IMG/VR virus record: IMGVR_UViG_3300037333_000141
Coordinates: 1-56,130 of that record
Length of the DNA: 56,130 bases
Reading direction: 5' to 3' (one strand)
Origin: a virus
Made by a program: the position numbers and the translations under genes. Shown one piece after another: positions 10,007-37,905 of this stretch (position 1 is the stretch's first letter; every line of letters starts with the position of its first letter). The notes beneath the pieces are model-generated. The model saw only the letters and a list, made by a program, of their open reading frames with translations. It was not told where the DNA came from and did not search any database.

Positions 10007-11539
10007 TTAAAATTCCTCTTCTTTAGGTTTTGATAAAATCATATCAATATCTATGTTTATTACGTTTTCTTTGTAATCTTCACTTATTGAAGAAATTCTA
10101 CTAAGCTTTGCATATAGTGATTTTCTTACATCAGGTGTATCAGGATAGCCTTTTTCTTTTAAGTCAGTAAGAATTGCATTATACTGAGAATCATTCATAA
10201 GTGCTTCTGCTGTTTGAGCTTCTTCCGCTTGTTGAGCGTGATTAATTACACTTCTGAAATTTACTTCTATCTGAGATAAGTCTATTTCAATATCAAATTT
10301 TGCGATAAAATGAATTTTTATAATATCAAAAACATATTCACGTATTGCACTTCTTATTTGTGTCCCTTGCGCATCCATTTGAAGCGAGTTTTGAACTACA
10401 CCATCTTTTTCACCACCGCCTATTGACATACCAGCGAAAGGAGTCATCTCAATATTAAAACCTATAGCACCAATAAATCTGCGTATGTGTATCATTATGT
10501 CTTCAATATTTTGAAAACCTTGAAAGTTAGGACTACTTTCTTGGATAGATATACCATTAGTTCCATCATTTGTTGTTGGGATTATATGATTAGCCATTAG
10601 AACACCTGGTGATTTAGTGCTTATCTTGTCTTTTATAGATGATAATGTAGATTTTATTTGGTTCTCTAACCCTTTTTTCAAAGCTTCTTTCTCGTCAGCA
10701 TTTACAGAGTTTAAAGAGTGAATAATAAATCTTTCTAGTACACTACTTGCAATACGAGTATTTGCTAAAGATTTTATAGCCCACTCGTAACCCAAAAACT
10801 CTTTGTAAACACCCTCCATTACTCCACCATAAATACCATCTTCATATATAGTTTCTTCGCTATTAAATAAATCTATGTTATTAATTGTAGCTAATTGCTC
10901 TGTTGTTACAGTTGTTATACCATTTCCAGCAGAGTTTAGTCTCCCTACAAAAATAGGTGCTACATATTGACGAGAGTTGTTATGTGTTACGAAAGAATTT
11001 TTACCCTTTAATATATCTCTTCCGCTTCCAACTTCGTATGCAACAGTTTTTCCTTGGTTAGATACTATCGGAGTTATATTAAATGGAGTTGTAGAGAAAT
11101 TTCTTAGTATTTTCGTAACACCTTTTTTGCTTTCAGAATGAATTCTGGCATAACCATCACCAAAAAATTGACTATCAAGAGTTATATCTATTAGATTTTT
11201 ACTTATTAAATCTACTAAATACTTAAATTCATTATTAATAATTTTCTTCATCTTTTTATCAATATTTGCATCTTGCTTCAATACAATATCAAACGGCTTT
11301 ATATTGTCGTGTGTAGTTCCTATAGCACGTACAATAATAACTTTAACCATCTCTCTAGTAAAAGTATCTTCGTACATTTCCTGACGCTCTAAAAGCTCAC
11401 TATCTCTGCTTATTGTTTTAAGAGATATTGAACCAGTTATAGATAAATTTCTAGGAGATGAGCCAGCGTAATAACTATTCAAAAGTTTAAGGTTTTCAAC
11501 TTCCTCTCTCAACTCTTTAAATTTGTTTTTCTTAGCCAT
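10007..11539 (-). CDS. Portal protein
   Basis: This 510-residue protein has portal-like content: repeated polar helices, the stretch SKSPGVLMANHIIP, a helix-rich core with IEDIMIHIRRFIGAIG, and a C-terminal part with QIEVNFRSVINHAQQAEEAQ. Similar sequences occur in the crown of portals. It is immediately upstream of the protease and downstream of two neck-type genes. The portal forms the dodecameric DNA gate and binds TerL. The call rests on length, composition, motifs and neighbours. Confidence 0.78.
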   Translation of the reverse strand: MAKKNKFKELREEVENLKLLNSYYAGSSPRNLSITGSISLKTISRDSELLERQEMYEDTFTREMVKVIIVRAIGTTHDNIKPFDIVLKQDANIDKKMKKIINNEFKYLVDLISKNLIDITLDSQFFGDGYARIHSESKKGVTKILRNFSTTPFNITPIVSNQGKTVAYEVGSGRDILKGKNSFVTHNNSRQYVAPIFVGRLNSAGNGITTVTTEQLATINNIDLFNSEETIYEDGIYGGVMEGVYKEFLGYEWAIKSLANTRIASSVLERFIIHSLNSVNADEKEALKKGLENQIKSTLSSIKDKISTKSPGVLMANHIIPTTNDGTNGISIQESSPNFQGFQNIEDIMIHIRRFIGAIGFNIEMTPFAGMSIGGGEKDGVVQNSLQMDAQGTQIRSAIREYVFDIIKIHFIAKFDIEIDLSQIEVNFRSVINHAQQAEEAQTAEALMNDSQYNAILTDLKEKGYPDTPDVRKSLYAKLSRISSISEDYKENVINIDIDMILSKPKEEEF

Positions 11540-19200: not shown

Positions 19201-20814
19201 TTAGAATTTAACTTGAATTTTACGAGCAAGTTTTAAAGAACGAGCATCACGATTTGCATCAACTACGATTTTACCGAGTAAACGTGTAACTTTATCACTA
19301 TCTTGATTTGTACCTAAGTCATCAGGGATAATAGGAAGACCTACACCACTAACTACAATACGCTTAGTATGTTCAGCTGGAACACCAATAACAAACATAG
19401 AGTGAGTTGTGTCGTCTGCTGGATAATCAATATCGTGTGTTGGATTATAGTAACAAGGTATAGTTCCATTAATATATCCAAGAAAACGAATTGAAGTTTC
19501 ATTTGTAATTACAACATTTGTTTTACTTGCATCAGTTGACAAAGCAGTAAATAATTTTAAAATACCAGCACCACCAAAAAGAACGATATTTGAAGTAAGA
19601 CCAGATTTTATAGCAATATCATTACGTGCTTCTTCTATGCGAATTAAAGCGTGTTTATTTTTTTCTGAGATTGTGTCTTCATCAGCGGAAGCAACATCAA
19701 CAACTTCACCAAAATCAGTAGCCCACATAAGACCCTTAGCAATTTTTTTAGCTTTTATCTCTTCTGATATTTTTGTAAGAGCTACATTTAAGTCGTTACT
19801 CATAAGTGAAATACCTGTAGATTGTAATACTTGACGAAGTTTTAAAGAGTTAATTTTAACATCTTGTGAGAATGTAATTGCAGTATAAATATTAGATACG
19901 ATGTCCGACTCTACACTTCCGCTAACTTCTGAAAGTTTATCAGCATTTAGTGAAGCCATAGCTACCATCTTTGTACCATCTGCAATATTATCTGAAACAG
20001 TAAGAACAATTTGACCATCATCATATTTGAACTCTACTTTGTAATCAATTCCATCAGCAGTAAGAGAACGAGTAGCAGTAGTTTCACGTGAAGTAACATT
20101 GAAGTCGTCAAAGAATATATTACCAGCAACAATAAGCTGATTTACACCACGCTCCATTGCATAGTTTTCTGTATCACTATCTACTTTTTTAACATCATAA
20201 GTATAAGTAAGTGTATCTGTAACAAACAGTTTTTCCATAACTCTTTCTAAACTTGAAAAAACACCACCAGCGTTTAGAGGAGTTATGAAATCTCCCTTAG
20301 ATAAATCACCCATAGCTCCACTTACAATAGGTTCAACTGATAAGATTTGGAATTTAGTGTTGTTCTTCCCGCTATTTGCTGGCGTTGCATCTGAAATGTT
20401 ACCAGCAAAAGGAACATCAGCACCTAAAATAGTAAGTATGTTTGCTTTTATATATGTAGCTACAACTTCTGCACCAGCAACATCACCTATACTATCTGCT
20501 TGAAATCTTCTTGCTACTTTTTCAGCAGCAACAATAGCAGTATCTATTTTATCTACTGTAAGTTTTACACCATTTTGTTGAGCAAATACTATCGAGTTTG
20601 CAATAACATCATCCATACTTAATGTTACATTTGCATCTAAAGCATCGTCAAAAGTATTTATAGAGTCAAACTGAGTTAAAGCACTTCCACTCGTAGCTTG
20701 TCTTAGACCAGCAACGGCAGTTGAAACAGCATCAGGTGTGATACTATCGAAGTTTACGCATTGAGAGATAAAAGAATGTCTCGCTTCTCTTTCGTCAATA
20801 ATTGTGTTTTGCAT
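19201..20814 (-). CDS. Major capsid protein
   Basis: A 537-residue protein, chosen as capsid by length, abundance-type SD (GAAGGAAAC), position upstream of sheath, and an HK97-like layout. It has a long helical N-terminal propeptide, a glycine-rich core (GLTSNIVLFGGAGILKLF) and a C-terminal strand region with VIGVPAEHTKRIVVSG. Start chosen at the ATG 20812-20814; an upstream ATG at 20862 lacks an SD. DSI motifs at residues 21-25, 48-52 and 105-109 fall in or near the N-terminal region likely to be trimmed. It lies 8 kb from portal and protease, an unusual separation. Confidence 0.8.
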   Translation of the reverse strand: MQNTIIDEREARHSFISQCVNFDSITPDAVSTAVAGLRQATSGSALTQFDSINTFDDALDANVTLSMDDVIANSIVFAQQNGVKLTVDKIDTAIVAAEKVARRFQADSIGDVAGAEVVATYIKANILTILGADVPFAGNISDATPANSGKNNTKFQILSVEPIVSGAMGDLSKGDFITPLNAGGVFSSLERVMEKLFVTDTLTYTYDVKKVDSDTENYAMERGVNQLIVAGNIFFDDFNVTSRETTATRSLTADGIDYKVEFKYDDGQIVLTVSDNIADGTKMVAMASLNADKLSEVSGSVESDIVSNIYTAITFSQDVKINSLKLRQVLQSTGISLMSNDLNVALTKISEEIKAKKIAKGLMWATDFGEVVDVASADEDTISEKNKHALIRIEEARNDIAIKSGLTSNIVLFGGAGILKLFTALSTDASKTNVVITNETSIRFLGYINGTIPCYYNPTHDIDYPADDTTHSMFVIGVPAEHTKRIVVSGVGLPIIPDDLGTNQDSDKVTRLLGKIVVDANRDARSLKLARKIQVKF

Positions 20815-20848
20815 TTTTTTTGTTTCCTTCTTTTTTTGTTTTTTATAA

Positions 20849-20897
20849 AGATACTTAAACAATACTAAAATATGTTTTAATAGTTGCTTAAGTATCT
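20849..20897 (-). promoter_or_regulatory. Stem-loop upstream of capsid gene
   Basis: Arms at 20849-20863 and 20883-20897 pair over 15 bp with two mismatches that become wobble or weak pairs in RNA, around a 19-base AT-rich loop. It lies between the helicase stop and the capsid SD, with no U-tract after it on the coding strand. It could mark an mRNA processing site or stabilise the capsid transcript. A related element is at 31612-31644. Confidence 0.55.
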
Positions 20898-20908
20898 GAG
20901 TCTATATA

Positions 20909-23900
20909 CTAACTATGCAGCAACTCTGTTTGAAGATTGTAATTTTTTTCTAAATTTTCTGTTTCCAATATTAATTCTTTTAATTTAGTATCTGAAACCA
21001 TTTTACAAATATTGTTACTTGTGTAGTTAGGAATTTGAGCTAGGTCATTTTTGTAATTAATATTATACACTCTATCAATTCCAACTATACTTAAATACTC
21101 TAATTCCGTATCAATTAGATTTATTTTAGAAACATCGTAAATTAAATTATCTTTTTCACTTCTATAACTGAATAACTTTTCATTTTCTGAAACAGCTTTG
21201 TATGTTTCTATTTTAGGCTCTGCATAGATACCATCAGGTATTGACATAATAACATCATCTTGTAATGTAGAAACTTTGAAATCTATGTTTTCAGCTTCAT
21301 CTAATTTGTATAATAATTCCTCTTCAATAACTGAATATAAAGATTTTAAATAATCTTCAATAGTCATTTTTTTAGTAGCTTTTTTTAACTCTTTTTTGAT
21401 GTGTGCTTTAACATTTTTATCTTCTATCTCATCTATATGTTTAAACAATACATTAGATTTTTTTATTTCATCATCTAGCGTTTCTTTAACGGATGTTTTT
21501 ATAGCTATCTTTATGTCTTCAAAATTTTTATATCCATCTGATAGTTTGTTACTAATAGTTGCAGGAAATGATTTTAAAGATTTGATTTTACTCTCTATGA
21601 ATTTAATAACATCTAAAGTTATTGAAGTAGAATTTTTAATATAGTTCGGAACATATTCATCTATCTTGTAATTTAAACTTGCATAAGGTATATTTAAAAT
21701 ATTAGATACATATATTCGTTCATTTTCAACCATTCTGTTTATTGTTGATTTTAGTTTCAATGCTTCTTTTAAATCATCTTTTTTATTTCCCCAAACAATT
21801 TTCTCAATTTCTCTTAGCTTTGTCTGTTCCTTTTCTTTACGTATTTTTTTATACTCATTTATCTTTCTAGCGTCATCCCAATCTGTAGCAAATTCTTTAT
21901 CTTCAAAATATCCTATAGCTTTAGTATATAGCATAGACATTTCATCAGTTTCAATTTTGACACTATCTTTGTCCCTTTTAGAAATTGTGTCAATCCAATC
22001 CGATTTACTATCTATTAAATCAATCATAAAATCATCAAAGCTACCATTCTGAATATATTTATATACATTAACTTTGTCTATATCGTTTCCTTGTCTAACA
22101 CTTCTACCCATTGCTTGTTCCCATTGGTCTGGAGTGTTTGGAATATCAAGTAAGTGTACAGCACTAACGAATTTATTGAAGTCAACACCTACTTGTGCCT
22201 TTTTATTAAAAATCATAATACCAGGGTTTTGACTATCATTAAAATCTGTTTGCTCTTTAAACCCTTTTTCATCTGATTTTATAGTTACACCATTATAAAC
22301 TGTAACTTTGCTTTTTGGAAATTCAGCATTTAATGCACTCTCTAAAATTGAGTGGTAAGCTAAGTTGTCAACATATATAACTTGTTTCGCTTTAGGGTGT
22401 CGAGTAAACTCATTTTTCATTTTTTCAATAAGTGGTTTCACTTTAGTAAAAGCATCTAAGTCGTAAATGCTATCGCTATCTATCATTTTTGCAGTTTTAA
22501 GTAGCTTAATAACCTTTGTAATAGTTTCATAGTCTTTACTTGGTAATTGAAATATATCACCATCACCGCTAGTTTGCACAAAAGTATTTAATCCATTACC
22601 TCTTGCTATTTTACTTTGTACTATTTTTGTACCATAGTTTAAAATCGGTTGCATTGCAAAAATTGGTGTTTCTTTTGTAGGAATAATATTTATTTCCTCA
22701 TCAAAAGTAATAGAGTTTAAATAGTTTAAATCATAAGACTGTTTAAGTCTGTTAAACTTCTCTATCTTTATATCTATATTCACTTTCCCTACAACTTTTA
22801 AAAGTTCATCAATAGAGTATTTTTTATTTAACATAATAGGAGTAAAACCATAAGCAAAATTTGAAGCCATTGTACTTGCATTTGCTTTAGTGAAAAAACC
22901 GAACACTTCTCCAACTTGCTTTGACATTCTATACTCTGCGGTAGTAAGGTCTATACCATCTTCACCATTCTCGCGCATTTCTTTAGCTTTGTCTTTAAAG
23001 TCTTCAAACTGTTTTCTAATATGAGAGATAGTTTGAACTAATTTAGGATTAACTGATATATCTACTCTATTTTCTGTATAGTCAGGTTTCACTTTAACAA
23101 CTTTTCCTCTCTCTAATGCTTTTAATTGTTCGTCCTCTGCATTTCTGAAAACTGTTTTATCCCACCCCAACATATCTAACTGCTTTATGTTTCTGATTCC
23201 AACCAAACGTTCTTCTGATGATAAATCACCCGTAGATGGTTTAACACTTTCTTTAGTACCAACCTCGCAAAATCTATCTATGAAATCTTGTGCAGTCATT
23301 TGTCTATTATTTGCACCGCTTAATGTCATATTTGCAAATATCTCCTGTGGACTTGAAGTTGTAGGAGTTGCTGAAACCATTACTGCACCGCTTCTACTTT
23401 TACCACCATCCCGCTTCATTCTGATATATTCTGTTACATATGCCAGTTTAACGGCTTTAGCTGACGATTTTCCTTTAACACCTTTTATATCTCCTTTCAT
23501 AGAAAATACATTTTTGTAGTTTTGTGCTTCATCAACCAATAGAAAATCAACACCTAAGTTTTCAAAGTAAAGTTTTCCATTTTTTTCATAATCTTTATGA
23601 TTATAAGCTTCTATTCCTATATCAGCAAGAGGGAACTCATATATAGTTGCAGTTTCATCACGTGTTGTTTTTTTATTATTGTAAAGATATGATGTTGTCT
23701 CAGGCTTCATTTTTAAAGCACTATCTATGAACGGATGGGCAACTATGATTATTTTAGTACTTTTATTATTCATAACATATCTGGATAGCTCTGTATAGTC
23801 TTTAAAATTAGGGAACTCTTTTTTTGTATTTGCTTTCATATCAATATTAGATACAACTACATTGTTATTAAAAAACTCTTCTTTGTAAACTGATTTAGCT

Positions 23901-26443
23901 TCATTGATAAACTTAGTAAAAACAGTCTTTGGAGTTGCTATCATTACACGTTTTGCATTTCCACTTTGAATGGCTTTTATTGCTGATAAAAGTGCTGAAC
24001 GAGTTTTTCCAAGTCCAGTGCCCTGTGCAATAGTACCTTTTAATGTCTTAGCAAATTCTCTAGCATCACTATTTTGATAATGGTGTGACGTCTTTAAAAC
24101 CTCAGGTCTAACAGTATCTTTTAATTCTGTTAGTTCCTCTTCATAATAGCTAGGAGTTTCAAGAGATACTATCGCTTCACTATCTAATTTTGCTTGTATA
24201 TCTTCTTGTATGTCTTTTCTACGTGCAACTAATAATCTTGCCGTTTCATCTGCAATCACCATGTTTTCTGATAATGCAACTTTTACGATACTTATAGCTT
24301 TATCAATAGCTACTTTTTTATCTTTGTCGCTTCCTTTAACGTCTTTACCACTAAAGTAATTTGTAGCAAAACCTCTTTTGTATTGCATATTTCCGATACT
24401 ACATTTTGCACTTAAAAAAGAATTTATAATATCTCTATCACTATCGCTTAAATTTTTCATTAGTGCATCATATTTAACTTCAGGAAAATCCTCACTAATT
24501 GTTTTTTTAAATAATGCCAAATAGTTTTCAGTTATTTTTCCCATTTCTTTTGAAAAATCCCAACCATATTTTGCAATTCCATAACCTTTTATATCTGCAA
24601 GTCTAAAAGTTATATCATCATATTTTATAACTTCACGTCTATTTGACAGCTCTTTAAATAGTTTATTTTTTTCACTTTGTGTTATGTTCTTATTTTCTGA
24701 AACATTTTCTAAAGCTTCATCATATCTACTAGGTAAACTGAACAAATACTCTTTAAGTATATAGACTTTTTTACCAACTTGAAGTATCTCATCGTTATTT
24801 TCAATATCTTCAATAGTAAGCTCACTTGTGTTAACTACAAGACCGCCATCTTCGTACGATACTTTATCTTCTAAACCTAATTTAAAAAATACATTTTGCT
24901 TCTCTAATTTTACAGATCTTTCTAACTCTTCATAAGTGTCTTTAAATACACCATTATCTAAATCAAAGTTTTTCAATGTTTCAAGTGTTGCAATAACTTC
25001 GTTCTTAACCTTTCCTTTGAGTTTTAAAGATTTTACAATTTTCTCATAGTTAGCTAAAAGATATTCAATTCCATCTTTGTTTTCTATAATAAAATCTTTA
25101 GAATACTCTGTTCCATCTAAAAATAAAAAATAGTTTGCTAAATTTTCTTTAGTTCCAAAAGCGTGAGAAAATCTTCTAATACTGAAATATCTAAGTGAGC
25201 GTTTAAGTAATTTATCCAACTTGTTATCTCTTATTTGCTTCTCATATTTTACAATATCTTCAAAAGTTAATTCAGGCTCACCGCTTACGCTAACTTGACT
25301 TATCTCATCACGCATAATAGTTGCAAGTTTGCTCTCTAACTCTTCCTCATCAACTGTATCACTCTTAACTACTTTTTCTTGAATTAAAGTGCTGTAATCA
25401 ATAGTGTTATCAAACTTTGATTTTGTTAATAAATCGTGCTTAACTGTTTCTATTGTTTGCCCATCTTTTAACTCTACTACATCAGATACAAACTTGCCAC
25501 TTTCACCATTTTCTAAACGCTCTTCTTTGGTTGTTAGTTCTCCGAAAACATTATTTTTATGAGTGCTAAAATAAGTTCCATTTAAAAACTCTTTTTGCAA
25601 CTCATTATCTAAAATACCATCAATATAAGCATCAGGTTTTAAAATGATTTTTTCAGGGTGTTTCTCAAAGACTATAATGTCCACTACTACATCAGTACCA
25701 GTTTGTTTAAACATACCGCTAGGTAATCTATAAGCACCTAAAAAAGCACCTTTTTTAAGCATTTCTAATCTATCACTACGATAGTTTTTACCTTGAATTG
25801 TACGTGATGTAGTCATAAAGACTGCTTTTTTTTCATACTTAAGTAAATCAAGTGATTTTAATATGAAATAAATCTCATTTCGTTTTATGTTTTTATATTG
25901 CTCGTCAGAACTCATATTGACACTTTCTCTAGCACCAAATGGAACATTAGTAACAATACTATCTATTGAATTGAGTTTTATTGTTTTTGAGTACTCCTCA
26001 AATGTTGTACCTGCTTTAATGTCTGCATTATCATTTAAAATATTTGCAATGCTACCACTTATTTTATTGTAATCACAACCTAAAAAGCTTACACCTTGTG
26101 GGGCTTGTGCTATGATATTACCCGTTCCGCAAGATGGTTCTAAGAATGTAGCACCATCTTCAATATCAACTAAATTAAATAGTGCCTTAGATACCTCTTT
26201 AGGTGTATAATATTCATCAACACTACCAGCAGTACCATCTGCACCAAGACCACCACTACCCGTATATTTTGCCAACTCTCTTTTTTCATCTTCTGTATAG
26301 CTAGACTTATTAAGTCCAACTAATTCTACAGCTCTCTTATTTGCTTTTAGACGTGAGCTTTTGCTTTTTAAAACCTTATTTGAATAGTAAGGGTTTCCAA
26401 CATACAGTAAGTTTCTAAGTGTTGCTATTTTCTTTTTAATCAT
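20909..26443 (-). CDS. DarB-like adenine methylase-helicase fusion
   Basis: An 1844-residue protein with two enzyme parts. The N-terminal methylase shows the SAM motif FLEPSCGTGNI (about 100-110) and the catalytic-loop variant TNVPFGA (about 165). The SF2 helicase shows Walker A GTGLGKTRSALL (about 808), VDEAQNYKN (about 968), VSATPTTS (about 1023) and QAMGRSVRQGN (about 1448). This pairing is known from P1 DarB, a virion-packaged antirestriction protein, and from large plasmid methylase-helicases. Its place directly upstream of the capsid gene favours packaging in the head and injection with DNA. The variant NVPFG leaves methylation activity to be tested. Confidence 0.85.
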   Translation of the reverse strand: MIKKKIATLRNLLYVGNPYYSNKVLKSKSSRLKANKRAVELVGLNKSSYTEDEKRELAKYTGSGGLGADGTAGSVDEYYTPKEVSKALFNLVDIEDGATFLEPSCGTGNIIAQAPQGVSFLGCDYNKISGSIANILNDNADIKAGTTFEEYSKTIKLNSIDSIVTNVPFGARESVNMSSDEQYKNIKRNEIYFILKSLDLLKYEKKAVFMTTSRTIQGKNYRSDRLEMLKKGAFLGAYRLPSGMFKQTGTDVVVDIIVFEKHPEKIILKPDAYIDGILDNELQKEFLNGTYFSTHKNNVFGELTTKEERLENGESGKFVSDVVELKDGQTIETVKHDLLTKSKFDNTIDYSTLIQEKVVKSDTVDEEELESKLATIMRDEISQVSVSGEPELTFEDIVKYEKQIRDNKLDKLLKRSLRYFSIRRFSHAFGTKENLANYFLFLDGTEYSKDFIIENKDGIEYLLANYEKIVKSLKLKGKVKNEVIATLETLKNFDLDNGVFKDTYEELERSVKLEKQNVFFKLGLEDKVSYEDGGLVVNTSELTIEDIENNDEILQVGKKVYILKEYLFSLPSRYDEALENVSENKNITQSEKNKLFKELSNRREVIKYDDITFRLADIKGYGIAKYGWDFSKEMGKITENYLALFKKTISEDFPEVKYDALMKNLSDSDRDIINSFLSAKCSIGNMQYKRGFATNYFSGKDVKGSDKDKKVAIDKAISIVKVALSENMVIADETARLLVARRKDIQEDIQAKLDSEAIVSLETPSYYEEELTELKDTVRPEVLKTSHHYQNSDAREFAKTLKGTIAQGTGLGKTRSALLSAIKAIQSGNAKRVMIATPKTVFTKFINEAKSVYKEEFFNNNVVVSNIDMKANTKKEFPNFKDYTELSRYVMNNKSTKIIIVAHPFIDSALKMKPETTSYLYNNKKTTRDETATIYEFPLADIGIEAYNHKDYEKNGKLYFENLGVDFLLVDEAQNYKNVFSMKGDIKGVKGKSSAKAVKLAYVTEYIRMKRDGGKSRSGAVMVSATPTTSSPQEIFANMTLSGANNRQMTAQDFIDRFCEVGTKESVKPSTGDLSSEERLVGIRNIKQLDMLGWDKTVFRNAEDEQLKALERGKVVKVKPDYTENRVDISVNPKLVQTISHIRKQFEDFKDKAKEMRENGEDGIDLTTAEYRMSKQVGEVFGFFTKANASTMASNFAYGFTPIMLNKKYSIDELLKVVGKVNIDIKIEKFNRLKQSYDLNYLNSITFDEEINIIPTKETPIFAMQPILNYGTKIVQSKIARGNGLNTFVQTSGDGDIFQLPSKDYETITKVIKLLKTAKMIDSDSIYDLDAFTKVKPLIEKMKNEFTRHPKAKQVIYVDNLAYHSILESALNAEFPKSKVTVYNGVTIKSDEKGFKEQTDFNDSQNPGIMIFNKKAQVGVDFNKFVSAVHLLDIPNTPDQWEQAMGRSVRQGNDIDKVNVYKYIQNGSFDDFMIDLIDSKSDWIDTISKRDKDSVKIETDEMSMLYTKAIGYFEDKEFATDWDDARKINEYKKIRKEKEQTKLREIEKIVWGNKKDDLKEALKLKSTINRMVENERIYVSNILNIPYASLNYKIDEYVPNYIKNSTSITLDVIKFIESKIKSLKSFPATISNKLSDGYKNFEDIKIAIKTSVKETLDDEIKKSNVLFKHIDEIEDKNVKAHIKKELKKATKKMTIEDYLKSLYSVIEEELLYKLDEAENIDFKVSTLQDDVIMSIPDGIYAEPKIETYKAVSENEKLFSYRSEKDNLIYDVSKINLIDTELEYLSIVGIDRVYNINYKNDLAQIPNYTSNNICKMVSDTKLKELILETENLEKNYNLQTELLHS

Positions 26444-26457
26444 AAAGTTTTACTTCC

Positions 26458-26874
26458 TTAAATTTGTGTTTCATAATACAGATAATCTACATCATCTACA
26501 TTTATCTCATTATTTGATAAGTTTACTTGCACATCACCAGTAGGATTAAAGTCTAACTCTTCAAACTCACTTAGATATAAAGCATAAGTTACAACCTCTT
26601 TCCAATCTTCTAAATCTTCCACAAGGTCCACATAATTTTCATTATATTTTATAAGGTTTTGAGGTTTTTTAATTGCTAAATCTTCAAGAATATCACTATG
26701 ACCTTTACTCTTAAGATACTCTAGCCAAGCATAGTAACCAACACCAAAAGATTTTAAAAATATCGGCTCATTGTAGTATGTATCAGATACAAACCTTTTT
26801 TCCATATTGTCTAAAACCTCATCTACTGTAAGCTCTAGTTTTTCCTCTAAATCTTGTATTAGTTCTTGTTTCAT
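26458..26874 (-). CDS. Unknown acidic 138-aa protein of dar-like module
   Basis: A 138-residue, very acidic protein (LEEKLELTVDEVLDNMEKRF; NNEINVDDVDYLYYE) between the clamp-like gene and the methylase-helicase, with gaps of about 10-15 bases on each side. No catalytic or membrane features are visible. Acidic small proteins beside DNA-acting enzymes can be inhibitors, DNA mimics or assembly factors; here that is only suggested by charge and neighbours. Confidence 0.6.
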   Translation of the reverse strand: MKQELIQDLEEKLELTVDEVLDNMEKRFVSDTYYNEPIFLKSFGVGYYAWLEYLKSKGHSDILEDLAIKKPQNLIKYNENYVDLVEDLEDWKEVVTYALYLSEFEELDFNPTGDVQVNLSNNEINVDDVDYLYYETQI

Positions 26875-26884
26875 TATTTCATTC

Positions 26885-28657
26885 CTATTTATTTTGCAGT
26901 GATTGAAACTTTTTCAATTCTATATTAAGTCTAATCTTTTCTTTTAAATTCGTACTTCTTTTTATGCTAGAAATAATTGTATCTATTTTTAGCTGTAGTT
27001 CATCACTGTTCTCACGTTTATAATATTGCACTGAACTACTTTTTAAGAATCTTGCGAACTCATACTCTGTATTTGTAATTTCTAAAAAGCTACCATCTTC
27101 ATATTCTAAAGCTATAGGAAAATTTTCATACTTATCTTTCACTACTTTAGCACCATTATCTATCGCTAGTTTAGTGTGTTCTTTACGTGTCATTGTACCG
27201 TTACTATATCTATAAACCTTATTAAGTACTTTTCTAGCTTTACCTCTTTGAAGTGGCTTTAAAGTCATTAGAAAATCATAGGCAACACCATCTTCTTTTT
27301 TTTGTTTCTCTAACTCTGCTTCTTTTGCTATTTTTTCATCTTCAATTTTTTTGAGTTGCTCTTGCTGTCTTAAATTGTCTTTTTGATGTTTCTCTTCTTT
27401 TGTTTGGATTATAAAATTCATAACTACAGATTTCAGGTTATCATCTTTAATTAAAATAGGTCTATCATTAGATATAAATAATTCTATGTTTGTGCTAAAT
27501 GCACTAAGTGTACTTAGAAACATTTTTCTATCAACTAAAACACTTCCTAATACAATGTCATGAGCATTCTCAATAGAACCTATGAAGTTTTCATCTTCTA
27601 TCCAATTATCGTAACCGCTGTCATCTCCGCTAACAATATCATATATCGACACTACACCATCTTTTACCAATATTCTAACAATTCTTCTAGTTGCATTTTT
27701 AAGTAAAGATATTATTTCTTTATTTTTAATTTCTACTGATATGCTACTTGTTTCGCTAGGGACAATTCTATCAATATTTGGATATTCTTCTTTGATATTA
27801 CTTACTATCAAATCAAATTTTTTAGTTTTATACATAGATTTTTCTTCTCCAACTAGAAGTTTTTCAATCTTTGCCTTATTAGTAAAAAGTTTGTATGTCG
27901 GTACTACTATTTGCTTATCTGAATTGAGTTTTTTGTTTTCTATAAACAGCGACTTAGTATCAGTTGAAGCTAGCCTATCATTAACACCATCTACAAATAG
28001 ACCTTGTAGTGATACTTTATAACTTCTTTTATCTACTAATTCAATTAAGTCATCTACATTACTTAGTTCATCAATAACACTAATTGTAAAATCAATATCG
28101 ACTTCGTTTGAAGAGTGTACTGGACTATTACTTATAGTAAAAAAGTTATTGTTTTCTTTGTAAAGGCTTATTTCTCCATCAGTATTTAACTCAACATCAT
28201 CTACATCAAATTTATTTACAATATCTTTTATTATCGCACCATCTGACCCAATACCATAGGCAATTTTATCTTTTATAATTACAACATTAAACTTTTTAAA
28301 AAATGTTGGTAGGCTTATAAAAACTTTATTGTTTGCAATTTCCAATCTGTTTAAAATATTTGCATTATGTATGCTTGCATTTCTATCTATTTTTTCAAGT
28401 TCTGAAATATCTTTATCGTTGTAATCTTCTGAATTTTTATAGAAATTAGCTACGCTACTACTGTGAAAAACAACATAGAGTTTCTTACCTTTTTGAAATA
28501 GAGATATATTTCCAAACTCCTTTACTTTTTTCGTGAGCTTAATACCTTGCATATCAGGGAATAAGAGAAAATCTCTATCACCTAAATTATTTTTTTGCTT
28601 TACTTCATTAGATAGTGTTAAAAGTTTTAAACTCTCTACTTTTTCTTTTACGCTCAT
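26885..28657 (-). CDS. Protein with DnaN-like sliding-clamp region
   Basis: A 590-residue protein. Residues about 215-415 look like the last two domains of a bacterial beta clamp. GVNDRLASTDTKSLFI (224-239) matches the ATDGHRLA region, EEYPNIDRIVP (290-300) matches FPDYRRVIP, and LVDRKMFLSTLSAFS with NDRPILIKDDN (374-406) matches the terminal domain. Residues about 420-460 are coiled coil, and a basic C-terminal region follows. It sits in the virion operon between the Nudix gene and the methylase-helicase. It may help load or retain injected proteins on DNA, or recruit host polymerase; this is inference. Confidence 0.6.
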   Translation of the reverse strand: MSVKEKVESLKLLTLSNEVKQKNNLGDRDFLLFPDMQGIKLTKKVKEFGNISLFQKGKKLYVVFHSSSVANFYKNSEDYNDKDISELEKIDRNASIHNANILNRLEIANNKVFISLPTFFKKFNVVIIKDKIAYGIGSDGAIIKDIVNKFDVDDVELNTDGEISLYKENNNFFTISNSPVHSSNEVDIDFTISVIDELSNVDDLIELVDKRSYKVSLQGLFVDGVNDRLASTDTKSLFIENKKLNSDKQIVVPTYKLFTNKAKIEKLLVGEEKSMYKTKKFDLIVSNIKEEYPNIDRIVPSETSSISVEIKNKEIISLLKNATRRIVRILVKDGVVSIYDIVSGDDSGYDNWIEDENFIGSIENAHDIVLGSVLVDRKMFLSTLSAFSTNIELFISNDRPILIKDDNLKSVVMNFIIQTKEEKHQKDNLRQQEQLKKIEDEKIAKEAELEKQKKEDGVAYDFLMTLKPLQRGKARKVLNKVYRYSNGTMTRKEHTKLAIDNGAKVVKDKYENFPIALEYEDGSFLEITNTEYEFARFLKSSSVQYYKRENSDELQLKIDTIISSIKRSTNLKEKIRLNIELKKFQSLQNK

Positions 28658-28661
28658 ATTT

Positions 28662-28883
28662 CTATACCTCTACAATATCATCAAATAAACTGTTTTTACT
28701 TAAGTCTGTATCATCTTTTAATTTACTGATTATATCTTCAAACATATCTTTAATGCTTGAATTTGTGTAAATAAGACGTTGTATCTCTTTAAGTGCTTTT
28801 GCTTTGTTTGCTTCACTTATTGTAGTGTCTGTAAAAAGATTTTCTAACTTATTACCTAAATTTTCCTCTTTTACAACATCAAA
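28662..28883 (-). other. Open frame after in-frame UAG of Nudix gene
   Basis: The frame continues for 73 sense codons directly after the TAG that ends the Nudix gene, in the same phase, to a second TAG (28662-28664). It has no ATG, GTG or TTG before a late ATG. The sequence is protein-like (NKLENLFTDTTISEANKAKA, then a helix with DMFEDIISKL). It could be a readthrough extension, a gene broken by a point mutation, or a separate gene with a rare start. The next gene uses GAGG within its end as SD. Confidence 0.55.
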
Positions 28884-29723
28884 CTAAACACCTTTTTTCA
28901 AGTATGCTATTACTAGATTTTTTTCAATAGGAATATGAAAATCTATTGTTTCACCATCTAATAAAGTTTCTTTATCTACAAATAAAAAGCTCTCAAACTC
29001 TTCATCATTATCTGAAGCATTGCTAGGATTACCTTTGCTCTCCATCTCAAAAAGTGCGATAGTTACTGCTTCGTTTGATAAATTTCCAAGTGATGTAATT
29101 TCGTCTTCTGAATAGATATAACCCGACTCCTCTTGTGCTTCTCTTATCATAGCTTCAAGTGGTGTTTCACCATCTTCTATACCACCACCGATGAAAGAGT
29201 ATTTACCACTATCTCTACGCTTTCCTATAAGATAGTTTCCTTTTTCATCAGTAATTAGTGAAACACTAGCAACTACATCACTTTTATTGTCTATGCTATC
29301 AGTTTGTATCTTGCCACCAAGAGAAAACATAGTTATTACACCATCAAACAGAGCTTCTACTTCGATAGCTTCTGAGTTTTGCTCATCTACTAATTTGTCA
29401 AGCTCTGAAACTATATCACTTGTAAAGAATTTTAAATCATCAAAAGTTAATTCAAGACCTTTATTTAAAATCTCTTTTGATTTTTTAAGTGTTTTATTAT
29501 CTTCTTTTTTTGTTTCAGCACCACTATTTAACTTTTTATATAAAGCTTCAATTTCATCACGTATTAAACTTTTTTCTTTACGTGATTTAGTTGATTTTAT
29601 TTTTCCATATCTAAGTTCAATTTCATCACGAATAGTACTTTTTTCTTTACGACTTAATGAGGTAGTAGTAACCTCATCAGTCTGTATCATCTTTCTAACT
29701 TTATGTTTTAGCATAGCAAACAT
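28884..29723 (-). CDS. Nudix hydrolase-domain protein of virion operon
   Basis: A 279-residue protein. A full Nudix box GX5EX7REUXEEXGU is present as GGIEDGE...REAQEESGY at about residues 187-209, preceded by a core strand ending NYLIGKRRDSGKYSF. Such enzymes cleave nucleoside diphosphates linked to other groups; the substrate cannot be read here. The N-terminal 150 residues hold two repeats, SRKEKSTIRDEIE and SRKEKSLIRDEIE, then helices. TDSID separates this part from the Nudix domain and may be a protease site. It overlaps the upstream gene at TAATG. Translation could continue past its TAG. Confidence 0.85.
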   Translation of the reverse strand: MFAMLKHKVRKMIQTDEVTTTSLSRKEKSTIRDEIELRYGKIKSTKSRKEKSLIRDEIEALYKKLNSGAETKKEDNKTLKKSKEILNKGLELTFDDLKFFTSDIVSELDKLVDEQNSEAIEVEALFDGVITMFSLGGKIQTDSIDNKSDVVASVSLITDEKGNYLIGKRRDSGKYSFIGGGIEDGETPLEAMIREAQEESGYIYSEDEITSLGNLSNEAVTIALFEMESKGNPSNASDNDEEFESFLFVDKETLLDGETIDFHIPIEKNLVIAYLKKGV

Positions 29724-31090
29724 TATTCATTCTCACTTTTTAACTTTTCAGTTAATCTCTCATCAATTTTGTCTAATATTTCTCCGAACTCATCTTCTCT
29801 ATCGCCTAACTCATCAAGTACTGAGTTGTAAGCATTTTTCATATCTTCATAAGTTTCCAAATTGTAAATATCTTCTAATTTTGAAGAGAAATCGTCATTA
29901 TCATCATTTCCAGTTTCAATCTCTTTTACTTTGTCTTCAACCCATCCAAGTATGCTTTTTACTGTACCATCTGCGACATCTTTAAATTCTACACGTGTCC
30001 AAATAGCTAATAGTTCTTCCATTCCATCATACTCTTTAGAATTATCAAACGTTACTCCACCATGACTATCTTTGAGTATCTGCTTGTATGTTTCATTACC
30101 TTTAAGCTTTTCTAATAGTTGAGTGCTTTTTTCAACAATGTCCTCATCAGTATCTTGCTCTTTATTTTCATTTATATTTTTAGCTTCTGCAATAAACTCT
30201 CTAATCTCTTGCTCATCACCACTTTTAACAAGTTTAGTATCATCGTTAGTTTCTACAATATCAAATGCTGTAAAATCTTCGTTTACTACTACTTGTAAAC
30301 TCTCATTTTCTTTTTGCAATTCTAATGTTAATTCTTTAGATAGTTTTTGCATTTCATCTTTTTTGAGTTGTTTTTCATCAGCTATTTTTTTATCATTTTC
30401 TGCTTTTACTTCTTTAGCTTTAACAACAGTAGATAACTCAGCTTCAAGGGCTTTTATCTCATCTTTAACACTTTGAATGTTTGCTTCTAGCTCTTTAGTA
30501 TCAACTGTTTTTATCTCAGGATTAGCTTTAACAAATTTAACGTGATTTGCTTTGATGATACCAGCGATTTTTTTAGCTTGAAGTGCATTATCCGTAAGTA
30601 CTTTTTTATCTGTAAAAATAGCTTTGTTTATATCTACATCATTAAGCACCCATCTAGTTACTTTTATAGGCTCATCTCTGTTCAATGAAGCACTATCTTT
30701 GTTTTCACCATACTGGCGTGCAAGACCTACGAGAGTTTGACCATCTTTAAATTGAATAATAAGTGGATAGTAAGTAGTAAGTTTATTTTCGCCTTTTACT
30801 TTACTTTTAAACGAAGCACTAAAACGGGCTTTATCTACAACTACTTTTGTATCATCACTAAGTAAGTTGTTTAATTTACGAATAAACTTTGTTAAGTTTT
30901 TTTGGAAACCTCTGTAAGTATCTCCCTCTATATTATCAAAGCTAATATCGCTATCTAAACTCTCTACATACTGCTCTACTGGTGCAACGTGTGGGTAAAT
31001 CTCATCTACTGTTAAAAGTGTTTGTTGTAAAGAAACAAATTGTTTACCAGCTCTTAAATCTTGTCTTATGATATTATAATCATCTCTCAT
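29723..31090 (-). CDS. DarA_N-like protein, likely internal head protein
   Basis: A 455-residue acidic protein. Residues about 104-190 (IIQFKDGQTLVGLAR, then IKVTRWVLNDVDINKAI, then AGIIKANHVKFVKAN) resemble the N-terminal domain of P1 DarA and Mu-like relatives. That domain is found in capsid-associated antirestriction proteins. A coiled coil (about 190-270) and acidic helical C-terminus follow. It overlaps both neighbours by one base. With the DarB-like methylase-helicase downstream it suggests a packaged defence-against-restriction set. Confidence 0.65.
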   Translation of the reverse strand: MRDDYNIIRQDLRAGKQFVSLQQTLLTVDEIYPHVAPVEQYVESLDSDISFDNIEGDTYRGFQKNLTKFIRKLNNLLSDDTKVVVDKARFSASFKSKVKGENKLTTYYPLIIQFKDGQTLVGLARQYGENKDSASLNRDEPIKVTRWVLNDVDINKAIFTDKKVLTDNALQAKKIAGIIKANHVKFVKANPEIKTVDTKELEANIQSVKDEIKALEAELSTVVKAKEVKAENDKKIADEKQLKKDEMQKLSKELTLELQKENESLQVVVNEDFTAFDIVETNDDTKLVKSGDEQEIREFIAEAKNINENKEQDTDEDIVEKSTQLLEKLKGNETYKQILKDSHGGVTFDNSKEYDGMEELLAIWTRVEFKDVADGTVKSILGWVEDKVKEIETGNDDNDDFSSKLEDIYNLETYEDMKNAYNSVLDELGDREDEFGEILDKIDERLTEKLKSENE

Positions 31091-31578
31091 TATGCTACCT
31101 CTTTTTTTAAATCTTCTATTTGCTTTTTAAGCTCATCACGCTTTGTTTCTAACTCTTCAAGCTCTTTATTTAACACTTCGACTTTGTCGTTTTGCTCATC
31201 TCCATAAGCACTTGCTTTTTTTACTAACTTATCATTTCCTGTTTGTGCTTTTTTTAAGTTTTCAAAATTTACAGTTTTAACAATATCATCAGCAACTTTT
31301 TTCCAATTTGCACGTGCTACTTCGTGAGGTGCAACAGTTTCAAGATTGTTTATTTCAACTAACTGTATTTTTCCATCATTACGAATGTGAATAGATAGTG
31401 GAATCCCATCAACATTACCATCGAATATTGTTATTAAAGAACCTTGCTTTGTGTATGTACTAGCTTTAAAAAAAGTCCCTACTGTAAGACCTTTATCCTC
31501 TATCTCTTTTACTAAAGTGATAATTTTGTCTTTGTGTTTTTCTGCTAATGTTAATATCGCCGCGTTTGAACGTACCAT
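31090..31578 (-). CDS. Coiled-coil protein of dar-like module
   Basis: A 162-residue protein starting MVRSNAAIL at an ATG (31576-31578) with SD AAGGAAAA. An earlier ATG at 31683 lies inside the preceding gene and is unlikely. The first 100 residues are a small alpha/beta domain. Then comes KKASAYGDEQ, a string shared with the 16659-17420 protein, and a C-terminal coiled coil (VEVLNKELEELETKRDELKK). Likely an internal capsid protein; the family is unknown. Confidence 0.65.
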   Translation of the reverse strand: MVRSNAAILTLAEKHKDKIITLVKEIEDKGLTVGTFFKASTYTKQGSLITIFDGNVDGIPLSIHIRNDGKIQLVEINNLETVAPHEVARANWKKVADDIVKTVNFENLKKAQTGNDKLVKKASAYGDEQNDKVEVLNKELEELETKRDELKKQIEDLKKEVA

Positions 31579-31611: not shown

Positions 31612-31644
31612 TATCTTAAAATCTTTTAATATGTGTTTAAGATA
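31612..31644 (-). promoter_or_regulatory. Stem-loop between first two virion genes
   Basis: A perfect 9-bp inverted repeat, TATCTTAAA at 31612-31620 and TTTAAGATA at 31636-31644, with a 15-base loop. It covers the end of the 31637-31852 gene and lies 33 bases before the next start. The core TATTAAAA followed by ATTTTA is shared with the stem-loop before the capsid gene. Confidence 0.5.
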
Positions 31645-31852
31645 TTGTACCAACCCCTGCATAAGTACCAGCACTATCTCCACTTGTTACGACTACTGTT
31701 GTATCTATTTGACCTTTTAAAACTTCTTCTAGTATTGCGGAAACCATCGCACGAATTTGTTTCTCTCCAGCTTCTTTTTGCTCTGCACTTCCTTGTAGTC
31801 CACCTAAGTTGCTTATTGTTTTTGCTACTGCCGTATCTATACTTATTGACAT
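31637..31852 (-). CDS. Small first protein of virion operon
   Basis: A 71-residue protein, MSISIDTAVAKTI to GTYAGVGTIS, with an SD (AAAAGGAA) well placed. It has a helical middle (KQIRAMVSAILEEVLKG) and a Thr/Val/Gly-rich end. It is the first gene after the control region, so probably highly expressed. Similar small Gly-ended proteins occur beside head genes of some Mu-like phages; the function is not known to me. Confidence 0.65.
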   Translation of the reverse strand: MSISIDTAVAKTISNLGGLQGSAEQKEAGEKQIRAMVSAILEEVLKGQIDTTVVVTSGDSAGTYAGVGTIS

Positions 31853-34152: not shown

Positions 34153-34648
34153 TTAAAATGGAATTTCTTCCATATCTATATCTATCTCAGGTGGGTTTAA
34201 AGGCATTTCACCGATGTTGTGGCTGTTGGTAGCCACTTTGTTGTTGCGGTTGCTGTTGATGATAAACTGGTACATTGTTTCTTTGCTGTGTTTGGTGATT
34301 TTGCTGTTGCTGTTGATTATCGCTTTTTCTATCTACAAAAGTAAAATCATTTAGCTTTATACTAACCATTGATTTTTTTTCTCCATTTTGGTCTTGCCAT
34401 CTATCTTGAACTAACGAACCATTGATTAGAATGCGTGAGCCTTTATGAAAATATTGGCTTATAGTTTCAGCACGCTTACCAAATACTGAAACTTTAAAAA
34501 AGTGAGCCTTTTCTATTTTGTTACCATTTTGGTCTTGATAACTTTCATTTACTGCTATGCTAAAATTTCCTATAGCTGTGCTACTTTGTGAGTATTTTAA
34601 CTCAACTTCATCTGTTAATGTTCCCATTATTTGTATATTATTAAACAT
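34153..34648 (-). CDS. ssb: Single-strand DNA-binding protein, tail in +1 frame
   Basis: The N-terminal 110 residues are a typical OB-fold SSB: FNNIQIMGTLTDEVELKY, FFKVSVFGKRAETISQYF, GSRILINGSLVQDRW. A Gln-rich linker follows, and the zero frame stops at 34208-34210 after 146 residues. In the +1 frame the DNA continues to a stop at 34153 and encodes PPEIDIDMEEIPF, the classic acidic SSB tip that binds partner proteins. The next gene is spaced from this later stop. A +1 shift, natural or a sequence error, is needed to join them. SSB coats single strands for replication and RecT recombination. Confidence 0.85.
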
Positions 34649-34669
34649 TGTAAACTCCTTTTTTAGTGT

Positions 34670-34879
34670 TTAAAGATTTGCAATCTCATTCTTTATTGTA
34701 TCAGTATCTAGCTTTGTTACTAAACCAATTTGCTGGACAAGCATGTCTTTAAGAGCTATATCGCAACACCATTCATAATCTATAAACACTTTGTAAAAAG
34801 TAGTTTCTCCATCTTTTCTCTTCTTTTTATGTTTTTCAACTAAAACGTTTTCAAAATCAATTTGATTTATTTTACTCAT
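34670..34879 (-). CDS. Small protein between SSB and exonuclease
   Basis: A 69-residue protein beginning MSKINQIDFENVLVEKH with a basic patch KHKKKRKDG and a helical end. SD AAGGAT precedes it by 7 bases. Position between SSB and RecE/RecT homologues suggests a recombination accessory role. No family recognised. Confidence 0.6.
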   Translation of the reverse strand: MSKINQIDFENVLVEKHKKKRKDGETTFYKVFIDYEWCCDIALKDMLVQQIGLVTKLDTDTIKNEIANL

Positions 34880-34887
34880 TCATATCC

Positions 34888-35733
34888 TTATATTATTTCA
34901 TCTTGTGCTATCTGTTCCATTCCACTATGAAAAAAAGCTTGAATTTCAGGTAACACTTGATTTAATTTATTTTCTCCGTTTTGCATCATCTCTGACCCAA
35001 AAGTTACCATCTTAACATCAAAAGTTTTTTTACTTGCTAGAAGTAGTTTAAATCTAACGTCTTTACTTATTCCGTTGTGTTCCAGCCACGACTTAACCGC
35101 TTTTACATAAAGTACACCTTGTAGGTCGTAGTTATTTTCTTGAAGTGCCTTAACTAATCCCCATCTTATGCCACTTTCTGCATCTCTTTTGTATTTAGTT
35201 GCATAGAAGTCATAAAATACACTCTTTAAATCTATAATCTCAATAAGACTATCTGAAACCTCTACTACTTTATCAAGTTTTGCACGATAAGGAACTCCGT
35301 TGATATTAGTTAATATTGTTACTTCATTCCATTCGCTAGGCTCTACCATATAAGGATATTTAATCTTTATATTTTCATAAGCACCTTTAATAAATGCAAA
35401 ATCTTCTGTATGAATAAAAGTTCTTTTTACATCGTTAAAATCGTTCTTCATTTCTCCAATATAATAGCGCTTTTCAAACTCATCATTTTCTAAAATATAG
35501 CAATGGAATGCACTTCCTACATCAAATATATACTGTAATTCCTTAGATATTTCAGCTTTATTCTCTTTTATTAACACTTCATAGGCATCTCTTTTATAAA
35601 TTTCTTTTAGAGTTGAAGCACTAAGCACTAACTTTTCATTATCAAAATAACTTACTTTACCTATACTAAAATACTCATCATCTGATATTTTCAGTATTTT
35701 TGGTACTGAAAAATCATTTCTACTTAAAGGCAT
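34888..35733 (-). CDS. RecE-like PD-(D/E)XK exonuclease
   Basis: A 281-residue protein paired with RecT. Family features are GSAFHCYILEN (about 73), an acidic-beta segment NINGVPYRAKLDKVVEV (about 148) followed by EIIDLKSV, which supplies the D...DxK metal site, and YDLQGVLYVKA (about 200), the conserved Y..Q...Y. RecE-type nucleases resect dsDNA ends so that RecT can anneal strands. The start is the ATG at 35731-35733, overlapping RecT by 10 bases; an upstream TTG would lengthen it by 18 residues. Confidence 0.8.
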   Translation of the reverse strand: MPLSRNDFSVPKILKISDDEYFSIGKVSYFDNEKLVLSASTLKEIYKRDAYEVLIKENKAEISKELQYIFDVGSAFHCYILENDEFEKRYYIGEMKNDFNDVKRTFIHTEDFAFIKGAYENIKIKYPYMVEPSEWNEVTILTNINGVPYRAKLDKVVEVSDSLIEIIDLKSVFYDFYATKYKRDAESGIRWGLVKALQENNYDLQGVLYVKAVKSWLEHNGISKDVRFKLLLASKKTFDVKMVTFGSEMMQNGENKLNQVLPEIQAFFHSGMEQIAQDEII

Positions 35734-36656
35734 TTTTCTAAATCTGCTTTCATATCTGATAATACTTGTGGAGCATAACCTCTCCAATCAGGATTAAGTT
35801 GCATTATGTCTGCCATCTTTGCTTTAGCATCAGGTGTTGCTTGTTTATATAAATTTGTAATATCATTAACTGTTACTGTTTCTACTTGGTCTATAACCTC
35901 TTTTTTGTCTGCAAATGATAAAGAGTTGCTTCCATTGCTGTTTGTCGCTTTTTTAGTTGTTTCTACTTCAATTACATCGTAATTCAATCTATCTGCTACA
36001 CCTAATTGTTTTTCTAAGTTTGATTTTTTACCATTCGCTAGATTTACCTCGCTAAACATTTTTCTGAACGCTTTGTGTTTATAGTTAGCGATTTGATGAG
36101 TTTTACTCTGTAATTGTTTCGTTACTTCTTTTAGATACCCCAACCCAACTATACACGTTTGTCTTGGCATATCTATATTGTCAAGTGATGTTATTTTAAA
36201 ATAAAAACCTAAAAAACTTTTTTCTACAAACTCAGGTTTTGTTTTTTCAAGTCTTGCTTGTTGCCCTATTGTTAAATCGCTTTCTAAAACTTCCGAACTA
36301 TCAATATCCCAAATATTGATACACTCTACAAAAAAGCCTTTTTCAGCGATTATTTTTTGTATCGCTTCTGCTCTCATAACAATTTCTAGTTTCACGCCAC
36401 CTTTACCACTAAATGGTAGTATGTAAAGCTCTTTAGCGCTTGGAGATATATCTAGTCCAGCTCTTGTAGCTCTGTATGCAACATTTAGCAACTCTTGTGG
36501 ATTAGCTTTACCTGTAAGATATTTATCACTACAAATTGATATAAAGTTATCTTTAAATTTTTCTCTATCATCTTCACTTAAATTCTTTAGCTTTTGATTA
36601 TTTATATTAATTAAACCTAGTGCGTCTTGTTCGTTGTTTATTTTTTGAATTTGCAT
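35724..36656 (-). CDS. recT: RecT-family single-strand annealing protein
   Basis: A 310-residue RecT homologue. The diagnostic region is NPQELLNVAYRATRAGLDIS, then KELYILPFSGKGG and EIVMRAEAIQKIIAEKGF. The later GLGYLKEVTKQLQSKTHQIA is also typical. RecT anneals complementary strands, and with the downstream exonuclease forms a phage recombination pair that helps concatemer formation and repair. SD AGGGAAATGCAAATTC precedes the start. SSB lies close downstream in the same operon. Confidence 0.88.
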   Translation of the reverse strand: MQIQKINNEQDALGLININNQKLKNLSEDDREKFKDNFISICSDKYLTGKANPQELLNVAYRATRAGLDISPSAKELYILPFSGKGGVKLEIVMRAEAIQKIIAEKGFFVECINIWDIDSSEVLESDLTIGQQARLEKTKPEFVEKSFLGFYFKITSLDNIDMPRQTCIVGLGYLKEVTKQLQSKTHQIANYKHKAFRKMFSEVNLANGKKSNLEKQLGVADRLNYDVIEVETTKKATNSNGSNSLSFADKKEVIDQVETVTVNDITNLYKQATPDAKAKMADIMQLNPDWRGYAPQVLSDMKADLEKCL

Positions 36657-36660
36657 TTCC

Positions 36661-37905
36661 CTAACCTCTTTTTAATTCAATCATATCAAAATGAATTTTT
36701 ATCATTTCTAGCATTTTATTTTTAGCTTCATCTTCACTATTTGCTTCTACTGCAAAACTACTCATAAACTCAACATCATCAGCACTAAGTCTATATTTTC
36801 CATCTAATACAGTTTCTCTTTGTGTCGGTTCAGTTTCTTCTTGCTGTTTCTGTTGCTGTAAAACAATATTTTCTTTTATTTCAGATAGTTTGTCGTTCAT
36901 AGCTTGAAGTTTGTAATTTGCTTCAATTTTAAGAGTATCACTTTTAAGTCTATCAATATCAGCTTTAACTAAAGGGATAGTATCTTCTAAAAATTCAAGT
37001 GTTGAAATCTCTATATTTATGTTTCTAATACCATTGATTATAGGCTCATCTAAATCTGCTTCTAAAGATTGCTTTGCTTCATTTTCACTTACTTTAATCT
37101 TTGTGTTGATGACTGCGATTTTTGAAGTTATAGACGCTTTTGCACTATCAGCTATATGAGTATATGAAGTATCAACCATAAGTAATAATTCATTAAGTTT
37201 TTTAAGTTGATTAGTATAGTCTAACTCATCAATCGAACTCATTTGAGTAGCAAAAAGATTATGCTCTCTTTCTGTATCTTCTTTCACTTTTTTAGCTTCG
37301 ATTAGTGGTTTGGATATTTTCTCAAACTCTTCTATAATAGCTTTCTTAGCGGAGCTTGACAACTCTTCTTTAGTGTTTAAATCAAAAGTTTTTATCTTCT
37401 TTTTTAATTCAATAAAAGACTCAAACATATCAACAGTTATGTGCAAATCAGTTTCAGCTATGAGAGCTTCAAATGCTCTTATCATAGAGTATCTACGTGT
37501 TTTATATATTTCTTCGTTTAACTCATCTATCTTCGTTTTAAAATCAATAGAATTTAAAGCTTTTTCTCTTTTTGTAAACTCTGATTTTAGCTCATCGAAT
37601 GGTGCTGTTGCTTGAATTCGTGTACCATTTAACCATTTATGGATTATTGATGTTTGTTTTCTCATTGCTTCTAAATCTTCGACACTATCAGCACTTTCAA
37701 TCTTTTCTTCTATAAAAGAAATTAAACCATCTACTGCTATGCTTATCTCATCAGCATTGTGAATTACTTTACCATTCGCAAAACCTATTTTTATAGGATT
37801 TAACTCCCAATTTTTAGACTTGTTTTGCTCGTTTAATTGATTGAAAAAATCGCTATCATCTAGCTTTGTCCCAACTATACTTTTTATTTTTTGCAACTTA
37901 CCCAT
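36661..37905 (-). CDS. Coiled-coil protein of the recombination block
   Basis: A 414-residue, strongly helical protein just upstream of RecT. It contains long coiled-coil segments (about 55-140, 160-230, 270-340). Similar DUF1351-type proteins occur beside recT/recE in other phages; that match is from pattern memory. It may act as a recombination or nuclease regulator. No catalytic motif. SD GTAAGTG is weak but spacing to the ATG is normal. Confidence 0.65.
   Translation of the reverse strand: MGKLQKIKSIVGTKLDDSDFFNQLNEQNKSKNWELNPIKIGFANGKVIHNADEISIAVDGLISFIEEKIESADSVEDLEAMRKQTSIIHKWLNGTRIQATAPFDELKSEFTKREKALNSIDFKTKIDELNEEIYKTRRYSMIRAFEALIAETDLHITVDMFESFIELKKKIKTFDLNTKEELSSSAKKAIIEEFEKISKPLIEAKKVKEDTEREHNLFATQMSSIDELDYTNQLKKLNELLLMVDTSYTHIADSAKASITSKIAVINTKIKVSENEAKQSLEADLDEPIINGIRNINIEISTLEFLEDTIPLVKADIDRLKSDTLKIEANYKLQAMNDKLSEIKENIVLQQQKQQEETEPTQRETVLDGKYRLSADDVEFMSSFAVEANSEDEAKNKMLEMIKIHFDMIELKRG

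Follow-up and report, generated by a model that had tools for sequence, protein, structure and literature searches.

The leftward gene run directly before the capsid gene of the virus record IMGVR_UViG_3300037333_000141 appears to encode a P1-type Dar system that also includes a Nudix hydrolase and a DnaN-like clamp protein. The material is a single virus record of 56,130 bases, known from sequence alone, and we call this entire stretch the window. The best explanation of the whole, to which we assign a probability of roughly 0.72, is that the run encodes anti-restriction Dar cargo, packaged in the head and co-injected with the DNA, with the Nudix enzyme and the clamp-like protein as further cargo. 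Virions of Escherichia phage P1 hold Hdf, DarA, DarB, DdrA, DdrB, and Ulx, and deletion of DarA or Hdf leads to the loss of the others (PMC12810830; PMC9024508). Hdf and DarA of P1 line the capsid and recruit the remaining proteins, all of which are injected with the DNA and act against type I restriction (PMC12810830).

The record has a GC content of 29.8% and is without an end repeat. The run spans positions 31852 to 20909 on the minus strand, and the capsid gene comes next. From upstream, the genes encode a 71-residue protein, the Hdf-like, DarA-like, Nudix, and clamp-like proteins, a 138-residue protein, the DarB-like protein, and the capsid protein. The features discussed here are as follows.

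31637–31852, minus strand: 71-residue protein of unknown function, opening the run (ORF; its only PHROG match, E 0.0065, is weak and of unknown function)
31090–31578, minus strand: Hdf-like protein, 162 residues from the ATG, with a DarA_N-type domain and a C-terminal coiled coil (profiles, hhalign, adjoins darA)
29723–31090, minus strand: DarA-like internal head protein, 455 residues (profiles, hhalign, AF2 and Foldseek)
28884–29723, minus strand: Nudix hydrolase, 279 residues (PF00293, Nudix box, match to L166, the DarB-fused Nudix protein of another record)
28661–28883, minus strand: 73 open codons in the Nudix frame past the TAG, without a start codon (frame and codon score)
26885–28657, minus strand: DnaN-like clamp protein, 590 residues (phrog_947, hhalign to DnaN)
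26458–26874, minus strand: 138-residue protein with an Ulx-like FG-YYxW pattern seen by eye (no profile match; hhalign to Ulx, see below)
20909–26443, minus strand: DarB-like N6-adenine methylase and SWI2/SNF2-type helicase, 1844 residues (Pfam, PHROG, motifs, blastp)
19201–20862, minus strand: major capsid protein, P1 gp23 type (phrog_1014, weak blastp match to gp23)
10007–11539, minus strand: P1 Prt-like portal protein (phrog_1497, blastp to D6 Prt)
9009–10004, minus strand: P1 Pro-like prohead protease (blastp and profile, P1 Pro)

The hdf and darA genes overlap by one base, as do the darA and Nudix genes, and the other genes from hdf to the capsid gene are spaced by 10–46 bases, with the exception of the 226 bases between the Nudix and clamp genes. 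The sequence-only reading had described a leftward run directly before the capsid gene, and the ORFs confirm its genes, coordinates, and minus strand. Its DarA_N-like protein, DarB-like methylase-helicase of 1844 residues, Nudix enzyme, and clamp-like protein are all borne out by the searches presented below, and the 162-residue gene that it had left unnamed can be assigned to Hdf. As for its proposal of a P1 dar-like module, Hdf, DarA, and DarB do stand beside a P1-type capsid protein, Pro, and portal, and the packaging and anti-restriction role would follow from homology to P1.

The predicted head and tail proteins identify the contig as a divergent P1 capsid-plus-Dar system with P1-type Pro, portal, capsid, sheath, and baseplate. 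The Pro homologue matches P1 Pro by blastp (1.4e-17) and by a profile of P1 Pro (initially 3.8e-11, finally 1.4e-46), and the portal protein matches phrog_1497 (2.5e-47) and, by blastp, D6 Prt (2e-18). The capsid protein matches phrog_1014 (7.2e-20), which we read as the gp23 family from the profile length and the weak blastp match of the capsid protein to P1 gp23 (E 0.004). The contig also encodes a PmgG homologue (3e-10), and the sheath and baseplate matches are weaker. No terminase could be identified in the ORFs that were scanned, and the record is possibly incomplete. Single-sequence searches of viral contigs with DarB, capsid, clamp, and sheath found no close relatives of the phage, and tblastn with the clamp and DarA against phage records gave no match; the gene set therefore rests on one contig. 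Genes for a single-stranded DNA-binding protein (SSB), an exonuclease, a RecT-like protein, a replication initiator, and a lysozyme-like protein lie at 34208–37905, 44783–45613, and 52098–52499 of the window. The best matches of the SSB include several Campylobacterota plasmid SSBs, beside other groups, which together with the 30% GC points to a Campylobacterota host without proving it.

Plain Pfam and blastp searches gave no clear match for the 455-residue and 162-residue proteins, and the Pfam DarA_N model (PF18788) is silent in the contig and equally silent in every control genome, and is thus uninformative. Profiles seeded with the DarA proteins of P1 and Rb1 take in the 455-residue protein with E-values of 9.1e-4 and 6.5e-4, respectively, at first inclusion; the later, far smaller E-values are not independent of this first inclusion. 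Aligned by hhalign with the DarA family from which the window members had been removed, the protein reached a probability of 95.6%. An AF2 model built with 27 relatives (pLDDT 69.8) found by Foldseek only two significant matches in the PDB, both in the P1 head (9ukm_I, E 2.8e-6; 9vz0_I, 4.6e-6), where we take chain I to be DarA from the chain length and the published DarA model (PMC12810830). Profiles and predicted fold together support the assignment of the 455-residue protein as a DarA homologue. The 162-residue protein is taken in by the Hdf profiles of D6 (E 7.7e-5 at first inclusion) and Rb1 (4.1e-5), and its hhalign probability against the Hdf family without window members is 83.5%. Its gene lies immediately upstream of darA, in the same order as in P1 and D6.

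Pro of P1 removes about the first 69 residues of DarA (PMC12810830) and the P1 capsid protein is cleaved at E120/S121 (PMC9024508). At the P1 cleavage region of DarA, the column [FLIM][DE]-[SANG][ILVM], which has the same sequence context as the capsid cut, is found in the window protein and in almost all 27 aligned relatives, and the candidate Pro site in the 455-residue protein is FD52/N53I. Such a four-residue pattern is expected about once per protein by chance, and its weight lies in its aligned position. Trimming of the window DarA by Pro is predicted.

The 1844-residue protein matches N6_Mtase (1.1e-14), Helicase_C (6.2e-5), phrog_11801 (2e-131), and phrog_10089, annotated as "DarB-like antirestriction" (1.5e-42). 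The methylase motifs LEPSCGTG and NVPF and the helicase motifs GTGLGKT, DEAQ, SATP, and QAMGRSVR are all intact. The methylase region of D6 DarB aligns with 34% identity (E 2e-38), and among named proteins it is most closely related to DarB of D6, JK004, Rb1, and PHB04, with roughly 24–39% identity over the aligned pieces. These intact motifs bear on the question of whether the main role of the DarA-Hdf pair in this phage is head assembly, as size control, with little anti-restriction effect. In P1 lacking DarA or Hdf, normal heads fall from ~80% to ~15% (PMC12810830), and the module here lies directly upstream of the capsid gene, both of which would suit a function in assembly. However, an intact DarB methylase-helicase and a Nudix enzyme are not assembly proteins, and P1 keeps head assembly and anti-restriction in the same proteins (PMC12810830), which makes a role mainly in assembly improbable.

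The 279-residue protein is a Nudix enzyme by its match to PF00293 (5.8e-13) and its intact Nudix box GX5EX7REUXEEXGU at residues 180–201 (GGIEDGETPLEAMIREAQEESG); its relatives in the PDB are generic MutT-like proteins. Past the TAG of its gene (28661–28883, minus strand), a further 73 codons of the same frame are open, with no start codon among them and a coding-like codon score of 0.204 (on-frame mean 0.135; off-frame 95% point −0.133). This stretch could reflect readthrough or a nonsense change that arose recently, or it could be a small gene whose start is unusual.

We surveyed 45 P1-like records, the window and 44 others, for genes of this kind. A Nudix domain occurs in this contig and in one other record (G003); a match in a third (G006) is weak and away from dar. 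In G003 the domain forms the N-terminal part of a fusion with the DarB methylase (L166, 639 residues; NUDIX 7e-23, N6_Mtase 3e-15), and the 279-residue protein shares 33% identity with this Nudix domain over 111 residues (E 6e-8). This fusion is repeated in two near-identical records (L166/L172–L174; IMGVR_UViG_2837411671_000010 and two more). In IMGVR_UViG_2837411671_000010 (L165/L166), darB is split, with the Nudix-methylase and helicase halves as separate genes about 11–12 kb apart. A prophage of Psychrobacter sp. I-STPA10 (L006) carries LPD3, Nudix, methylase, and helicase in a single protein of 2585 residues. We found no description of the Nudix-DarB link in the literature searched.

A second phosphohydrolase domain, InPase (PF18823), is found in 25 of the 45 records, and it moves among the Dar proteins of P1-like phages. 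It lies within the DarA ORF in ten records identified by script (L086, L087, L105, L112, L114, L120, L133, L136, L140, L148) and in two more by coordinates (L131, Rb1), within DarB in L108, L122, and L082, and within the Hdf ORF in L155. In L091, L111, L125, and PHB04 it forms an ORF of its own that lies just upstream of darB. The occurrence of InPase in packaged polyvalent proteins was proposed earlier (PMC5512222), as was the packaging of Nudix proteins fused to head proteins (PMC9503650). Both survey records with a dar-linked Nudix lack InPase, yet mutual exclusion of the two domains is not significant (hand estimate about 0.19, with 25 of 45 records positive).

Because of the Nudix-DarB fusions in two other lineages and InPase at similar places, we count the Nudix enzyme as part of the Dar-type cargo theme, a variation on what is already known and not a stray gene. 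The sequence-only reading had seen in the added Nudix and clamp-like genes a larger, possibly undescribed version of the P1 system. This proposal is supported in part. Nudix is fused to the DarB N-terminus in two other lineages, and InPase is similarly placed in most relatives. Co-occurrence with dar in other phages is thus seen for Nudix, in the form of the DarB fusion. For the clamp no such neighbourhood was found among the 44 other records, of which only three have clamp matches, away from dar.

The clamp-like protein itself is real. The 590-residue sequence matches phrog_947 (3.9e-7), a profile with matches in 13 of the 14 control genomes too, which is expected of a DnaN/PCNA-type family. 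With an alignment of 18 bacterial DnaN proteins and one phage clamp, hhalign pairs its residues 128–417 with positions 53–366 (probability 89%, E 2e-6), covering domains 2–3 and part of domain 1. The clamp-like part comprises about residues 1–417 and is followed by a 173-residue C-terminal extension. None of the Pfam clamp models matches at E up to 1, a single-sequence AF2 model (pLDDT 41) was too poor for use, and tblastn with a piece of the C-terminal region gave no match in phage records. No clamp-binding peptide was found in the module proteins. The DnaN-family match over most of the second and third domains would be compatible with a replication processivity factor, which would work with the host polymerase in late replication. 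We consider this role somewhat unlikely, given the place in the late operon between dar genes, where a replication clamp is unexpected because the scan of phage proteins recognised neither a polymerase nor a clamp loader, and given the long C-terminal extension. We infer membership of the clamp in the Dar system solely from its operon position.

The survey and the gene spacing also bear on whether the Dar system comprises Hdf, DarA, and DarB only, perhaps with the 138-residue protein, while Nudix and clamp are unpackaged passengers of the late operon that act in the producing cell, in nucleotide clean-up, packaging, or late replication. Such passengers could explain why the clamp has no dar-linked relative in the 44 other records, why a 226-base gap precedes its gene, and why the PDB relatives of the Nudix enzyme are generic. 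The two unrelated DarB-Nudix fusions, the one-base overlap of the darA and Nudix genes, and the InPase domains inside DarA, Hdf, and DarB ORFs speak against it, and we regard passenger status for both genes as unlikely.

The 138-residue gene beside darB (26458–26874) contains an Ulx-like FG-YYxW stretch, which is statistically unproven. As a candidate Ulx it was not matched by any of four Ulx-seeded profiles, and its hhalign probability against Ulx is only 3.6% (P 0.012).

If the run encodes packaged cargo, Hdf and DarA would, by analogy with P1, line the capsid interior and recruit the other cargo. DarB, as a methylase and DNA translocase, would ride in and shield the entering DNA against restriction. 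The Nudix enzyme would be an additional cargo enzyme, with a gene of its own for the domain that other phages fuse to DarB, and would most likely cleave a pyrophosphate-type nucleotide, such as an ADP-ribose- or NAD-derived alarm signal or a similar molecule, immediately upon entry; in most relatives the InPase domain may play that part. The clamp-like protein would most likely be cargo too, and would bind the injected DNA, encircle it, or keep other Dar proteins attached to it. One might speculate further that Dar cargo is a two-part arrival kit, consisting of DNA shielding by Hdf, DarA, and DarB and destruction of a pyrophosphate-containing alarm nucleotide, by Nudix here and InPase in most relatives, with an injected clamp here holding the kit on the entering genome, but we hold this full scheme to be rather doubtful.

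With this contig, the known range of the P1 Dar-plus-capsid system comes to include a phage of 30% GC that has no close relative in the collections searched. The recurring tie of Dar proteins to pyrophosphate-bond hydrolases, with Nudix-DarB in two lineages and many cases of InPase within DarA, Hdf, or DarB, leads to the prediction that Dar cargo may counter nucleotide-based immunity besides restriction. A clamp that is injected would be a new finding, should it prove real.

Compared with the Dar systems of P1 and its relative D6, the window shares the Hdf-DarA pair in the same order, the DarB methylase-helicase, and P1-type Pro, portal, capsid, and sheath. It differs in that darB shares a run with hdf and darA directly before the capsid gene, in the presence of the Nudix and clamp-like genes, and in the length of DarB (1844 against about 2250 residues). 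Searches by blastp with the window module proteins found no match to DdrA or DdrB of P1, D6, or JK004; this does not exclude a P1-type Dar system, because this part varies within the family, with DdrB comprising 454 residues in D6 and 995 in P1. As in L166/L172–L174 and L006, a Nudix domain is tied to the DarB methylase of a P1-type Dar phage, but it is a separate gene here and fused there, and no clamp was seen in their dar regions. The InPase-bearing Dar or polyvalent proteins (PF18823; Xanthomonas phage Rb1 DarA, Bordetella phage PHB04) likewise have a phosphohydrolase attached or next to DarA, Hdf, or DarB, which in their case is an OB-fold InPase instead of Nudix. Finally, the late, head-associated setting resembles that of the packaged phage Nudix proteins proposed earlier (T4 NudE-type; fused to MuF, portal, or head protease) (PMC9503650), whereas the Nudix enzyme of the window is tied to a Dar module.
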